A stretch of DNA of 54,440 nt from Pontiellaceae bacterium B1224 (GTDB lineage Bacteria > Verrucomicrobiota > Kiritimatiellia > Kiritimatiellales > Pontiellaceae): the NCBI GenBank assembly GCA_029432815.1, contig JAROBA010000036.1, forward strand, positions 1-54,440. Direction: 5' to 3'. The notes beneath the pieces are model-generated. The model was not told where the DNA came from and did no database searches. It saw nothing but the letters and a program-made list of their open reading frames with translations. Made by a program: the position numbers and the translations under genes. Each line of letters starts with the position of its first letter. The first letter of the stretch is position 1. Positions 141 to 45,867 of the stretch are shown piece after piece.

Positions 141-167
141 GGCAGAATTATTTTGGGCAGAATGATT
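141..167. repeat. Solo paired GGCAGAATNATT repeat
   Basis: Two units, GGCAGAATTATT and GGCAGAATGATT, lie in direct orientation with a period of 15 nt. The same paired design flanks the GxxExxY gene at 30.1-30.9 kb and recurs at 45.84 kb. Here it stands alone between the recombinase and a small hypothetical gene. The rest of 91-370 holds no gene I can support. A GC-rich segment at about 235-265 resembles half of the hairpin at 15807-15863. Confidence 0.6.
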
Positions 168-28881: not shown

Positions 28882-29064
28882 CTATGCACCAGTTTCCTGG
28901 ATTGCTGCGCGAATCTGCTTGGTGTTCATGTGCTTCAGCTGATCATCTGTAAAGCCGGCACCAACCAGGCGTTTCTTCTGCTGCATCAAGCGCTGACGCT
29001 TCAAACGCGGTTTCTTAACCGGACGACGCAGCGGCTTTTTTCGCATTGCTCTTCTAATTCTCAT
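28882..29064 (-). CDS. Small basic protein (60 aa) with SAP-like C-terminus
   Basis: This 60-residue protein has a strongly basic first half (about 17 Arg/Lys in 32 residues) and a short helical second half, GFTDDQLKHMNTKQIRAAI, that resembles a SAP or HeH DNA-binding motif. A real gene is supported by GAGG 6 nt before the ATG and by a dedicated terminator. It may bind nucleic acid or be a small ribosome-associated protein; I know no named family. It forms its own short transcription unit between sixA and aroK. Confidence 0.7.
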   Translation of the reverse strand: MRIRRAMRKKPLRRPVKKPRLKRQRLMQQKKRLVGAGFTDDQLKHMNTKQIRAAIQETGA

Positions 29065-29175
29065 GGCAAACCTCTTCCAATTCGTTTTTGTAAAAAATCA
29101 GGCGAGGAACCTACACAGCGGCAGATTATCGCGCAACCCTTATCTGGCTAAAATTTAAGGCATCTTTTTTGCGGT

Positions 29176-29673
29176 TCAGGCCTCTTTTTTCGGATAATCC
29201 AGATTCAGCAGTTCTGCCGGGCAGTTTCCGGCCTCGTTCCAATGGTTGGAATCGAGCGAAATAGTAACCACGGAACAGGTCGGCAGGTTCTGAAATTGAG
29301 CATCCACCAACCCTTCCGCCAGCCAGGTCATGGAGGGATTATGGCCCACCAACATGACTGAACCATGCGAATCATCCAGCAATTGGATCAATTCAAGCAG
29401 GGTTTCAGTGGACGCTTCGTAGATACGCTTCTGCATATAAATTGAATTTTCCGGAATGCCGAGTTCTGCATTCAGCAGGTTGAGCGTTTCCACCGCGCGC
29501 CGTGCCGGGCTGCAAAGCACAACATCCGGCATCACTCCCTTTGCTTTAAACCGCCGACCCGTTTCAGGGGCATCGCGCTGGCCACGATCGTTAAGCGGTC
29601 GGTCGAAATCGGAATAACTGGGGTTCACCCAGCTCGATTTAGCGTGGCGGACAAGATAAAGCGTTTTAGGCAT
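29176..29673 (-). CDS. sixA: SixA-type phosphohistidine phosphatase
   Basis: This 165-residue member of the histidine phosphatase superfamily has the RHG motif LVRHAKSSW near residue 7 and a second catalytic His in MLVGHNPSM. SixA removes phosphate from histidine of phosphotransfer proteins such as ArcB or, as later found, NPr. The ATG at 29673 has GGAGATACCG upstream and overlaps the cdd end by 8 nt, so the two are translationally coupled. A 15-bp palindrome (29237-29251) encodes SNHWN near the C-terminus. No obvious target lies nearby, except that the phosphate two-component genes are in this window. Confidence 0.88.
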   Translation of the reverse strand: MPKTLYLVRHAKSSWVNPSYSDFDRPLNDRGQRDAPETGRRFKAKGVMPDVVLCSPARRAVETLNLLNAELGIPENSIYMQKRIYEASTETLLELIQLLDDSHGSVMLVGHNPSMTWLAEGLVDAQFQNLPTCSVVTISLDSNHWNEAGNCPAELLNLDYPKKEA

Positions 29674-30061
29674 CGGTATCTCCAAATTTAAAGCTGTTGG
29701 GAAGCAGTTTGCCCAGAGTAATGGTGTCGTGGCCATCGCTTCGGGCCACGTACACCGGAAAATCCTGCTGGAAAAATTCAACCATCACCTGCCGGCAGGC
29801 CCCGCAGGGGTAGGGCGTCGAATCGCCCGATGCGGCAATCGCCATAGCCGCAAACTCCCGCTGCCCCGCAGCAATGGCCGAAAAGATGGCGGTGCGTTCG
29901 GCGCAGTTTGTCAGGCCATAGGAGGCATTTTCCACGTTGCAGCCTTTGAACACGGTTCCGTCGGCACACAGCAGGGCGGCACCCACCCGATATTCAGAAT
30001 AGGGTGCATGCGCATGTTCCAATGCCTGGAACGCAGCTTCAATCAGTTCATTCGGGTTCAT
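29666..30061 (-). CDS. cdd: Cytidine deaminase
   Basis: This zinc enzyme deaminates cytidine and deoxycytidine in pyrimidine salvage. The 131 residues are the homotetrameric short form. The zinc and catalytic residues are Cys53 and Glu55 in NCAERTA and Cys86/Cys89 in PCGACRQ. AGGA precedes the ATG. The gene begins just after the left repeat of the GxxExxY cassette and is likely to have been contiguous with the purine nucleoside phosphorylase gene before that insertion. The FQALE at 11-15 is encoded by a 15-bp palindrome. Confidence 0.95.
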   Translation of the reverse strand: MNPNELIEAAFQALEHAHAPYSEYRVGAALLCADGTVFKGCNVENASYGLTNCAERTAIFSAIAAGQREFAAMAIAASGDSTPYPCGACRQVMVEFFQQDFPVYVARSDGHDTITLGKLLPNSFKFGDTDA

Positions 30062-30080
30062 ATCTTTTTCCTAATTGTTA

Positions 30081-30108
30081 GGGCAGAAATATTGACGGCA
30101 GAAATATG
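30081..30108. repeat. Left paired repeat of the GxxExxY cassette
   Basis: GGGCAGAAATATT and CGGCAGAAATATG, period 15 nt, lie just past the stop of the GxxExxY gene. They are the inverted counterpart of 30921-30945. Confidence 0.85.
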
Positions 30109-30112
30109 GAAC

Positions 30113-30913
30113 TTATTTGGTGATGGTTTCAAGGGCAATGAGTCCACGGGATATGTTGATCCATTGAATTGTTTTAAGTGGTGTCTTGGCTAGAAACTGA
30201 CAGAGATCCTTTCGATAAATATCCGTGTTGTTTTCAAATGTTGTAAGCTTCAAAGCTGTACTTGGTGAACAAAGGAGAACTGGTTGAGTTGCTACCACGT
30301 TTCCGTTTAAGAGTACATCGACTTCGTTATTGATAAGGTTTTGGTCAGCAATTAAGTGAATGAGAGCTTCCTCATACAGGGATCGCTCCAATCCGGTTCC
30401 CCAATCCCGGATGAGCTCAATCAACAATGATTTTTCCGTTGATTCGAACCCAATTGAAGAATGCCATCCAGAATCCTGAATGTTAAATAATTGACGCTCT
30501 TCGAGTGTTTGTGTGGCATTTATAAATTCATGTTGAACCATTTCAGGTCGGAGGTTCACTAGTTTTCCATGCTTGAGTTCTGTCAGTAATAAATAATTCA
30601 GAAGTTGACTGCGATGGCGCTGATGAAGGGTATCAACGGCCTTAAGCTCAAGTACTGCACCCGATGAAGCCAGAACGTCCATAAAATAGGATTTATGGAA
30701 ATCTCTGAATGACACCTTTATTTCTACTTCTGTCTCAATGTTATCCATTCGGGATTTCAATGTGTTCTTATAAACTATTTCATCAAATAGACGACCCAGT
30801 TCCCGGTGCAAAGCAAAGATTTCAGCCATAACCTCATACGAGACCTTCGAAAACTCTGCTTGCGAAAGTTCTGAGAGTTGAGCATCTACCGAAACAGGCA
30901 CTTTATTCTCCAT
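30113..30913 (-). CDS. GxxExxY-family protein, extended form (PD-(D/E)XK-like)
   Basis: This 266-residue protein has the GxxExxY pattern near the N-terminus (FALHRELGRLFDEIVYK) and the core AVLELKAVDTLHQRHRSQLLNYL, then LVNLRPEMVQHEFIN, as in GxxExxY proteins. In that family the E-x-K resembles a PD-(D/E)XK nuclease site. Usual members are about 125 residues; this one has an additional C-terminal half of unknown type. Members often occur in many copies per genome and their role is not established. No ribosome-binding site is visible; the leader is the repeat itself. The gene fills exactly the space between two inverted paired repeats. Confidence 0.8.
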   Translation of the reverse strand: MENKVPVSVDAQLSELSQAEFSKVSYEVMAEIFALHRELGRLFDEIVYKNTLKSRMDNIETEVEIKVSFRDFHKSYFMDVLASSGAVLELKAVDTLHQRHRSQLLNYLLLTELKHGKLVNLRPEMVQHEFINATQTLEERQLFNIQDSGWHSSIGFESTEKSLLIELIRDWGTGLERSLYEEALIHLIADQNLINNEVDVLLNGNVVATQPVLLCSPSTALKLTTFENNTDIYRKDLCQFLAKTPLKTIQWINISRGLIALETITK

Positions 30914-30920
30914 CCATTTT

Positions 30921-30945
30921 TCTGCCGTACATATTTCTGCCCTAG
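30921..30945. repeat. Right paired repeat of the GxxExxY cassette
   Basis: TTCTGCCGTAC and ATATTTCTGCCC, period 15 nt, match the left repeat in inverted orientation over 23 nt with about 2 differences. The outer end overlaps the TAG stop of the purine nucleoside phosphorylase gene. Confidence 0.85.
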
Positions 30946-31766
30946 ATTTCTTTTACGAGTTTGTGGAGAAAGTTGGTGATGGTGGATTTCATGCGGGGCA
31001 TGGCTTCGGCGGCGGTTTGGTTGACGTCTTCGTGGGTGAGGGGGACGGGGCTGATGCCGGCCGCCCAGTTGCAGACGCAGGAGAGCCCGGCCACCTGCAG
31101 GCCCATCGCATTGGCTACCATTGCTTCGGGAGCGGTCGACATGCCGACGGCATCGGCGCCCATGGAACGGTATTGATGAATTTCGGCCGGTGTTTCAAAC
31201 GTCGGGCCCATCGTGGCAAGATAAACCCCTTCGGCATCGGCTCCGGAATTCAGCAGCATTTCGCGCAGCGGTTTTCGATAGATTTCGGATTGATCGGGGA
31301 AGCGGGTTCCAAGGGCTGGAATATGCGGGCCGATCAGCGGGTTGGAACCAAGCATATTAATGTGGTCGGAAATAGCCATCAGCGAGCCGGGTTTCAGATC
31401 ATCACGGATCCCGCCGGAAGCGTTGGTGAGCAGAACTGTATCGGCGCCCATAGCTTTGAGCAGATAAACCGGGAGAATGACCGGCGTCCACCCTTCGCCC
31501 TCATACCAATGGCGGCGGCCCTGAAAAATGAAGACCTCCATGCCGTCGACTTCTGCTAATAGCAGTTTTCCGGCATGGCCCATTACGCCGGTTTTTCCAA
31601 AGCCTGGAAGTTCCGTGTAGGGGAGTTCCAATCCCTGGAAATCTTTCACCGCCTCGCCCCAGCCCGAGCCGAGGATTAGACCGGCTTTGGGTTTGGCATT
31701 CGGCCAGATGGATTTCAGCGCATTGGCGGCGGCATCGAGAACGGTCGGATCAATCAGTGTGCTCAT
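30942..31766 (-). CDS. Purine nucleoside phosphorylase
   Basis: This enzyme (family 2, trimeric PNP/XapA type) splits inosine, guanosine and relatives with phosphate to base and ribose-1-phosphate. The 274 residues show GLILGSGWGE with the phosphate-binding Ser, GVMGHAGKLL, the phosphate site GRRHWYEG, TNASGGI, MGPTFETPAEI with the base-binding Glu, and a late CNWAAG. It is first in the minus-strand salvage cluster with cdd and sixA. Two palindromes (31595, 31626) encode LPGFG and FQGLE. The C-terminal stop is formed within the edge of the GxxExxY cassette repeat. Confidence 0.93.
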   Translation of the reverse strand: MSTLIDPTVLDAAANALKSIWPNAKPKAGLILGSGWGEAVKDFQGLELPYTELPGFGKTGVMGHAGKLLLAEVDGMEVFIFQGRRHWYEGEGWTPVILPVYLLKAMGADTVLLTNASGGIRDDLKPGSLMAISDHINMLGSNPLIGPHIPALGTRFPDQSEIYRKPLREMLLNSGADAEGVYLATMGPTFETPAEIHQYRSMGADAVGMSTAPEAMVANAMGLQVAGLSCVCNWAAGISPVPLTHEDVNQTAAEAMPRMKSTITNFLHKLVKEI

Positions 31767-31822
31767 GCATGAAACTTAGGAACAAGTGGCATCGGGTTCA
31801 ACCTTTTGATAGCGTGAATCGC

Positions 31823-33310
31823 ATGAACCGATTTGTGAATATACTGCTCATCAGCCTGCTCGTGGTGAGCGTCCGGGCTGAAACGCTTCATTACACCACC
31901 GTGCAAAAGCAGTGGGGGCTGGCCACATCAGCCATTCTCACGAAGCGGAATCATGAGGACTTCTACTCTCTGATGGGCGACCCGCCGGTGCCGCGCGCCA
32001 TTGAGCAGCAGCAAAACTCGCTACGCCGATGGTGGGGCATCTCCGACCGGAAATCGCTGATCAAGAAAATGAAATGGGTGCGCGATGAGGGGCACCGGGC
32101 GGAGTTCGATCAGATTCTGGCCGATCGTGAAAAGGCGGAATGGCTTGTTGTGCTGCGCGATCGGTTGTCGCTGAAAGACCGGGCCTACGACTATGACTAT
32201 CGCCGAACTTTTGTGGAAGAGCATGCCGACGAGCTGGAAGGTAAATCGCTGTTGGCCTGGGATCTGGCCCGTCTGGTTTCGCTGGCCCGCTGGGGCGTGC
32301 TTTGCGGATATATGGAAGCAGAGGAGGCGTGGGAATGGATCATGCCGGCCGCGCTTGCATTGCAGGAAACGTACGACTCGTGGGAGGATCTGGCGGAAAA
32401 TTATATGCTTGGGCGAGCATTCTGGTCGGAATATTACACCTTTGAAAGCGGCCATAAATATAAGCAGGCGATTTATTGGAACCTGAAGAATGAATGCAGC
32501 CCGTGGAATCGAATGGATTGGGGGACGGATCTGACCGGAAGCGCTGACCTGCAGCCCGAAGATGGTGAACTGCCGGCAGCGTCGGATTATTTCGTTGCGA
32601 CGCAGTATGATTGGGGAGGCCAGCCGCAGAAGGCAATCGACCTGTTGCTGCAGGTGAAGGACGAGAGCGATGATTATTACCGGGCGCTGGCTTATAATCG
32701 ATTGGGAAATATCTATGAACATGGCCGCGTCGGGATCGCGATGAATTGGCGTAAAGCAGTTGAGTATTATGCGGCCGGCGCAGAACTGGGAAATGCGGAC
32801 TGCCTGTTCGAGATTGGCAATGCGCACTACCAGGGAAATGGGCGCGCGAAAGATTTCAACAAAGCGATGGAATACCTGCAGGCGGCGGCGGAAGCCGGAA
32901 ATGTGGGTGCACTGACCAGTATGGGCTTGCTCTATGCCGATGGCGATGGGGTTGAAAAGGATTTGAAAAAAGCGGCGGAATTATATGCAGAAGCAACGCG
33001 GTGGGGTGCGACATATTCTGAAAATAATATGGCCGCGATGATGTTTGAAAATCCTGAAATCTGGGAGCCCGAGGAGGCGGTTGAGCTGGCATACAATGCC
33101 ATTTATAAACGGGAGTGCAACTCGCACTACGACACGCTGGTGAAGGTGCTGATTAAAGCCAAATACTGGAACGACGCCTGGTTGGAACTCAACGACTGGG
33201 AGCAATACGATATGCGCCAACGCGATAATTACGACCCGCTCGACCTTCCGAAAAAATTCAAAGTTTTCCGCAACGTAATTCAGAAAGGCCGATTGAAGTC
33301 CGAAGCTTGA
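31823..33310 (+). CDS. Exported DUF1266-like and Sel1-repeat protein
   Basis: This 495-residue protein has a signal peptide (MNRFVNILLISLLVVSVRA). The central part (about 100-250) has the WGLA...LARWGVLCGYMEAEEAWEWI and SWEDLAENYMLGR pattern of DUF1266 proteins. From about residue 290 come Sel1-type TPR repeats (RLGNIYEHGRVGI, EIGNAHYQGNGRAKDFNKAMEY, SMGLLYADGDGVEKDLKKA). Sel1 repeats mediate protein contacts. The start is the ATG at 31823, chosen for the signal peptide; a longer frame back to 31757 lacks one. It is divergent from the phosphorylase gene. Confidence 0.78.
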   Translation: MNRFVNILLISLLVVSVRAETLHYTTVQKQWGLATSAILTKRNHEDFYSLMGDPPVPRAIEQQQNSLRRWWGISDRKSLIKKMKWVRDEGHRAEFDQILADREKAEWLVVLRDRLSLKDRAYDYDYRRTFVEEHADELEGKSLLAWDLARLVSLARWGVLCGYMEAEEAWEWIMPAALALQETYDSWEDLAENYMLGRAFWSEYYTFESGHKYKQAIYWNLKNECSPWNRMDWGTDLTGSADLQPEDGELPAASDYFVATQYDWGGQPQKAIDLLLQVKDESDDYYRALAYNRLGNIYEHGRVGIAMNWRKAVEYYAAGAELGNADCLFEIGNAHYQGNGRAKDFNKAMEYLQAAAEAGNVGALTSMGLLYADGDGVEKDLKKAAELYAEATRWGATYSENNMAAMMFENPEIWEPEEAVELAYNAIYKRECNSHYDTLVKVLIKAKYWNDAWLELNDWEQYDMRQRDNYDPLDLPKKFKVFRNVIQKGRLKSEA

Positions 33311-45668: not shown

Positions 45669-45814
45669 TGTTTCCGTCAGGTTCAGATCCAGGCGTGTCG
45701 TAGAAAGGACGTCCTGCCCGTTTTCGGTAGTACGGTGAGCATTTGGACAGGACCATTTTTTAAAGGCCGTTAATAGTCCTGCCATCCATGGTCCTGTAAA
45801 ATTTATCCCGCAGG

Positions 45815-45867
45815 TTCCAAAGAGTTGGAATTAGGGTGTTCATATTTCTGCCCCCATATTTCTGCCC
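45815..45867. repeat. Palindrome variant plus solo paired GGCAGAAATAT repeat
   Basis: TTCCAAAGAGTTGGAA (45815-45830) is a palindrome variant with a six-base centre. It is followed by two CATATTTCTGCCC units (45841 and 45855, period 14), the same paired repeat that flanks the GxxExxY gene. The stretch 45669-45966 otherwise contains no gene. Confidence 0.65.

Follow-up and report, generated by a model that had tools for sequence, protein, structure and literature searches.

An intergenic nuclease gene of Pontiellaceae bacterium B1224, encoding a GxxExxY protein of the PD-(D/E)XK fold, lies between two inverted arms built of direct repeat units, and we consider it more probable than not (probability about 0.6) that gene and arms together form a REPIN/MITE-like single-gene mobile element whose nuclease recognises its own arms. 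GxxExxY genes occur in many bacterial phyla and, to our knowledge, have no assigned role. The original prediction for this DNA described the gene as a cassette in inverted paired repeats; it did not include the gene-less copies, the family-wide extent of the arms, the way arm type matches protein type or the S23 genes of like architecture that are reported below.

A nuclease gene between inverted arms

The window, by which we mean the whole 54,440-nt stretch of DNA that was analysed, contains the following features.

29666–30061, minus strand: cdd, cytidine deaminase, downstream neighbour (open reading frame; abuts or overlaps pnp in element-free relatives)
30079–30110, plus strand: left arm, downstream of the GxxExxY gene (inverted-repeat and pattern search)
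30082–30092 and 30097–30107, plus strand: left-arm direct units GGCAGAAATAT (pattern search)
30113–30913, minus strand: GxxExxY gene, 266 aa (TIGR04256, PF13366)
30913–30944, minus strand: right arm, upstream of the GxxExxY gene, ending on the pnp stop codon (inverted-repeat and pattern search)
30931–30941 (GGCAGAAATAT) and 30916–30926 (GGCAGAAAAAT), minus strand: right-arm units (pattern search)
30942–31766, minus strand: pnp, purine nucleoside phosphorylase, upstream neighbour and insertion-site flank (open reading frame; junction compared in 30 relatives)
45842–45866, minus strand: gene-less GGCAGAAATAT pair with a 14-nt period, a dispersed copy or half copy (pattern search)
143–166, plus strand: dispersed pair of the related unit type CAGAATTATTTTGGGCAGAATGAT (generic pair search)

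The gene had been predicted to lie between inverted paired repeats with a 15-nt period, and the inverted-repeat search bore this out: the two arms are 32 nt each and 91% complementary, with 802 nt between them, and each consists of two GGCAGAAATAT-like direct units at a 15-nt period, one of the four units reading GGCAGAAAAAT. The units are non-palindromic, and it is the two arms that are inverted relative to each other. The cassette is intergenic and sits exactly between pnp and cdd, touching its neighbours as had been described: the pnp stop codon (TAG, 30942–30944) is the end of the right arm, and the left arm lies 18 nt from the cdd start, with an AGGA-like motif within those 18 nt. By inspection, no Shine-Dalgarno-like sequence precedes the GxxExxY ATG, and the arm is the leader of the gene, again in agreement with the prediction. 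The GC content of the gene is 0.407, compared with 0.573 and 0.568 for its neighbours, and positions 29000–32000 gave no Rfam match, introns included.

Pairs of the GGCAGAAATAT type are far above chance. When up to one mismatch was allowed, GGCAGAAATAT had seven matches in the window (shuffle mean 0.91, maximum 5, 100 shuffles), of which four make up the two pairs at the GxxExxY gene and two the pair at 45842–45866. Across the 5.4-Mb genome, GGCAGAAATATN4GGCAGAAATAT with up to two mismatches was matched 11 times and the reversed control 0 times.

Two further arrangements of units were observed. At 45749–45866, between a response-regulator gene on one side and a PAS/phosphatase-like gene on the other, a hairpin-like element built of a different unit type (ACAGGACCAT ... 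ATAGTCCTGCCATCCATGGTCCTGT) adjoins the GGCAGAAATAT pair, and at L038 3618–3900 two GGCAGAAAAAT pairs alternate with the unit type GGTAAAAAAT/GGGTGAAAATAT in a tandem arrangement of ~257 nt. RAYT/Y1 transposases were considered as owners of the repeat and rejected, as 0 of 11 Y1 loci in the B1224 genome had the repeat within ~1.5 kb.

Empty sites and remnants at the pnp–cdd junction

The 3′ end of pnp was compared across 30 genomes, many of the relatives' genomes being drafts. In 13 relatives (G001, G002, G003, G004, G005, G006, G012, G013, G017, G018, G024, G027 and G028) the site is empty, with cdd overlapping or abutting pnp, so the two genes are otherwise adjacent, as had been supposed. A cassette is present at this site in three genomes (B1224, G016 and G025; arms of type GACAGAAAAATTAGGGACAGAAATAT in the latter two), and gene-less remnants are found in two relatives (G008 and G021). 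The G008 remnant is 73 nt long and retains one arm. The G021 remnant, of 134 nt, consists of the left arm, the codons WINIPRNRITFETL and the right arm; these codons are the gene's own C-terminus (the B1224 counterpart is WINISRGLIALETI), and ~50 nt of the 3′ end of the gene are kept. It is an internal deletion in place and offers a direct view of the passage from gene cassette to gene-less element.

The closest long GxxExxY gene that we found, 58% identical to the B1224 gene, belongs to G028, where it is located away from pnp–cdd; since the pnp–cdd site of that genome is empty, the cassette changes sites and is mobile. The claim of a single-gene mobile element therefore stands for the insertion cassette, on the strength of the 13 empty junctions, and the further claim, that the nuclease is the mover, is one that we infer. 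Empty sites in the relatives, both here and at the gene-less copies described below, are too diverged for the target to be read.

Arms across the GxxExxY family

Long GxxExxY genes are present in many relatives, and nearly all are bracketed by paired inverted units that vary around the consensus CARRATNAT with a period of 14–16 nt. Examples, with gene names assigned by reading of the sequence, are GCAAAATGATTAAGAGCAAAATGATT, which precedes an apbE-like gene, ACAGAATAATTAGAACAGAATAAT, which precedes an exbD-like gene, and ACAGGATGATGGACAACAAGATGATT, found at a nadC–coaX-like junction. Scorable paired inverted arms, each gene's own and related in sequence, were found at 36 of 39 long genes, and the median inverted-repeat score of 53 long-gene flanks (including a few loci counted twice) was 24, compared with 10 for 572 control ORFs (99th percentile 19).

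The sequence of the arms co-varies with that of the protein. Among long genes with scorable arms, arm distance and protein distance were correlated at r = 0.64, and the correlation persisted with same-site pairs removed (Mantel r = 0.41; 0 of 5,000 permutations), although part of this co-variation could come from joint inheritance of cassettes. In G021, three paralogues carry three different types of arm, and each resembles the corresponding ones of other genomes; the arms therefore follow the protein rather than the host.

The original prediction expected the same paired repeat at both ends of other GxxExxY genes and took genes lacking it as contrary evidence. An GGCAGAAATAT repeat at every GxxExxY gene was rejected: the other GxxExxY genes of the B1224 genome are without GGCAGAAATAT, and each type has its own arms. 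As a class, GxxExxY genes do have paired inverted arms, and because the five genes whose flanks are intact have arms with sequences of their own, the contrary evidence applies in the literal sense only. A second two-domain GxxExxY gene in the B1224 genome (L047 5341–6153, 270 aa) has arms GCAACGAATGTATGGAAAGCAACGAATG, which differ from those of the long subfamily.

With one short GxxExxY subfamily as the query, a scan of one genome per species (84,980 species) yielded 80 loci in many phyla, including Verrucomicrobia, Planctomycetes, Bacteroidetes, Cyanobacteria, Proteobacteria, Chloroflexi, Acidobacteria and others, and in isolates of Nostoc, Flavobacterium and Novosphingobium. Flank scores of at least 17 were reached by 66% of 77 short-gene flanks and 3.9% of 204 control ORFs (Mann–Whitney p = 1e-24); such arms are rare at control ORFs. 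Most high-scoring short-gene arms are of type CTCACGCAAAGGCGCAAAGGCGCAAAG, with a 9-nt period; CGCAAAG-type arms are maintained across phyla within this one subfamily, and some loci have a unit array on one side only. Few relatives are plasmid-borne, and the idea of phage carriage was set aside, as none was confirmed in viral contigs with three queries in a scan of limited reach.

Gene-less copies dispersed in genomes

The generic pair CARRATNATN6CARRATNAT occurred 500 times in 58 genomes, compared with a single occurrence of the reversed pattern. The median number of pairs per genome was 8.5 with a long gene versus 0 without (p = 5e-6), and three genomes (G014, G017 and G034) had 25–36 dispersed pairs with no long gene found. 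An inverted partner within 110 nt accompanied 25 of 46 dispersed pairs (direct partner: 12), compared with 5 of 618 background windows. Among the matches listed, dispersed pairs in nine genomes resembled the gene arms of their own genome more closely than expected (0 of 100,000 permutations); for instance, the GGTCAGAATAAT form of the dispersed pair in G039 is the arm of that genome's own gene.

Three further junctions were compared between relatives. On the 3′ side of a cinA-like gene, a copy is present in B1224, survives in degraded form in G008 and is missing from seven relatives. On the 3′ side of a birA-like gene (loci L371, L382, L383, L385 and L378), the element is of GGCAGAAA type in B1224, of CGCAGAG types in G016 and G004 and of CACAGAT type in G012, with none in G024, G021, G025 and G007; this junction is an insertion site common to unrelated element types, with five genomes occupied and four empty. 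On the 5′ side of a moaC-like gene, the arms of an element in G004 match those of that genome's own long gene, and G007 and G025 have no element. Gain or loss of gene-less copies therefore takes place at gene junctions, some of which are hit by different element types.

A separate observation concerns the letter at unit position 7. Among the matches listed, 13 of 15 mixed gene-less elements in relatives were antisymmetric at this position (left outer equal to right inner, left inner equal to right outer) versus one symmetric, and the gene cassettes did not uphold this order (2 versus 4). As the data in which the order was spotted overlap those used to test it, we treat it only as a lead; if true, short elements would have a direction.

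The GxxExxY protein

Profile searches confirmed the protein as a PD-(D/E)XK-like member of the GxxExxY family, with scores well above the cut-offs for TIGR04256 (GxxExxY; 81.4 bits, cut-off 35) and PF13366 (PDDEXK_3; 83.2 bits, cut-off 22). Only these profiles matched, with no known transposase in the element, and defence-system models gave only weak Cas4 hits. The AlphaFold2 model of the 266-aa protein (pLDDT 94.8) comprises a PD-(D/E)XK domain at about residues 16–152 and a degenerate second domain at about residues 155–266, and the best solved match to the N-terminal PD-(D/E)XK fold is SSO0001 of the Cas4 family (Z 9.4, rmsd 2.2, 91 residues).

The catalytic residues are conserved, D79 being invariant and E89 and K91 present in 90% or more of the 36 proteins aligned, and we infer nuclease catalysis. 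In a single hhalign comparison (E 8.5e-5), the short GxxExxY family aligned with the C-terminal half, which is without catalytic residues and keeps the invariant W171, G172, A183, W251 and N253. The 266-aa protein has the look of a pseudo-dimer in which one site is active and the other inactive.

Proposed mechanism and alternative explanations

In the mechanism that we propose, a full copy would consist of the GxxExxY PD-(D/E)XK nuclease gene inside inverted arms with two direct units per arm, and internal deletion would give rise to short gene-less copies made up of two arms and a short centre. These would be moved in trans and would spread within the genome as REPINs do beside a RAYT gene. 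Insertion would go into operon gene junctions, where the element would supply a stop codon or leader and no gene would be broken. Most likely, the nuclease would bind the units as a pseudo-dimer in which one domain is active and the other inactive, and would cut at the arms or the target, after which replication or repair would probably copy the element.

A broader reading is more tentative, and we hold it to be somewhat less probable than its contrary: GxxExxY proteins might be the movers of very widespread bacterial miniature elements, which would account for the dispersed repeats of CGCAAAG and CAGAATAAT type in many phyla, and the same reading would include transposition machinery based on PD-(D/E)XK, here as a pseudo-dimer. 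Like the nuclease family its role, the dispersed repeats had lacked a known mover here. If true, these proposals would give this large family of orphan nucleases a function open to testing, would say where a common kind of intergenic repeat comes from, and would reveal a second, unrelated enzyme class arriving at the REPIN–RAYT way of life. We found no link of GxxExxY to repeats and no mention of the CGCAAAG and CGCAGAG unit strings in the open-access literature that was searched, so novelty is provisional, and small mobile DNA of this kind is apparently undescribed.

The strongest counter-evidence to the nuclease as mover comes from S23 four-helix-bundle genes (TIGR02436; relatives, L206–L235), which have inverted arms of degenerate tandem units, such as AGGCTTTAGGCTATAGACCTTAGACTTTAGG or CAGAGGTCAGGGGTCAGAGGTCAGA, and flank scores with a median of 19 (16 of 24 at ≥17). 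S23 is not a nuclease and has no catalytic site that we know of. As these genes are bracketed likewise, arms alone are no proof that the nuclease does the moving: either S23 and GxxExxY both work for one common mover, or each of these two unrelated proteins drives such elements independently. One could accordingly picture general inverted-arm elements that are moved by a host or separate enzyme, with GxxExxY and S23 as passengers, perhaps protective or regulatory, a picture that would also suit the three genomes in which copies are numerous but no long gene was found (G014, G017 and G034). We nevertheless judge it unlikely, because arm sequence follows the GxxExxY protein even between sites, because a passenger would not need the CGCAAAG-type arms kept across phyla in one short subfamily and because, within the B1224 genome, such arms were not found around any other gene. 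As a lead, those intervening sequences of 23S rRNA that bear S23 genes may represent particular instances of the S23 element class.

Intervening sequences (IVSs) of 23S rRNA have complementary ends and are cut by RNase III (PMC4990558), and the arms could act similarly at the RNA level, pairing in the operon transcript so that RNase III or the GxxExxY protein cuts there and the gene is freed from its neighbours. Arm complementarity extends to units and spacers (0.92 and 0.88) and the elements are located between operon genes, both as expected of such a role; however, gene-less copies are gained or lost at the DNA level and several are mismatched between their arms at unit position 7, so we give this explanation a small probability, lower than that of passengers. 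RNA cutting and DNA mobility are mutually compatible. The dispersal of GGCAGAAATAT-type repeats in the genome could also mean that unrelated background repeats came to stand beside the gene by chance. This is very improbable and already disfavoured by the control comparison, as nearly all long GxxExxY genes are bracketed while control ORFs rarely are, and arm type goes with the protein, not with the genome, as with the three paralogues of G021. A mobile element with a nuclease that recognises its arms thus remains our preferred reading.

Comparison with known systems

The element shares features with several known systems. Cas4 and RecB-like PD-(D/E)XK nucleases resemble the protein in the fold of its N-terminal domain and in the weak Cas4 profile hits, but GxxExxY has a second, degenerate copy of the domain and stands alone between arms, with no cas operon. 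Homing endonuclease elements differ in residing in an intron or intein at their own cut site inside a gene, whereas the GxxExxY cassette is intergenic and matches no Rfam intron. Like 23S rRNA IVSs with an S23 ORF (PMC4990558), the element has a single small ORF, complementary ends, a poor ribosome-binding site and a sporadic distribution; unlike them, it lies between protein genes rather than in an rRNA helix, its ORF has a nuclease fold and its gene-less copies are dispersed. Terminal inverted arms, empty sites and internal-deletion derivatives are shared with insertion sequences and their MITE derivatives, from which it differs in having no known transposase, no established target duplication and arms of doubled units.

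Further parallels are with REPIN–RAYT systems (PMC3116915), which are likewise chromosomal, with one gene copy per type and its own repeats beside it, and with gene-less inverted doublets dispersed in the genome whose repeat type is matched to the gene type. RAYT, however, is a Y1 (HUH) transposase and REPs are palindromic, whereas the protein of the element has a PD-(D/E)XK fold, its arms are two direct non-palindromic units and the GxxExxY gene lies inside the inverted arms. The element works like REPIN–RAYT but is not a member, as it lacks the Y1 transposase and has non-palindromic units.
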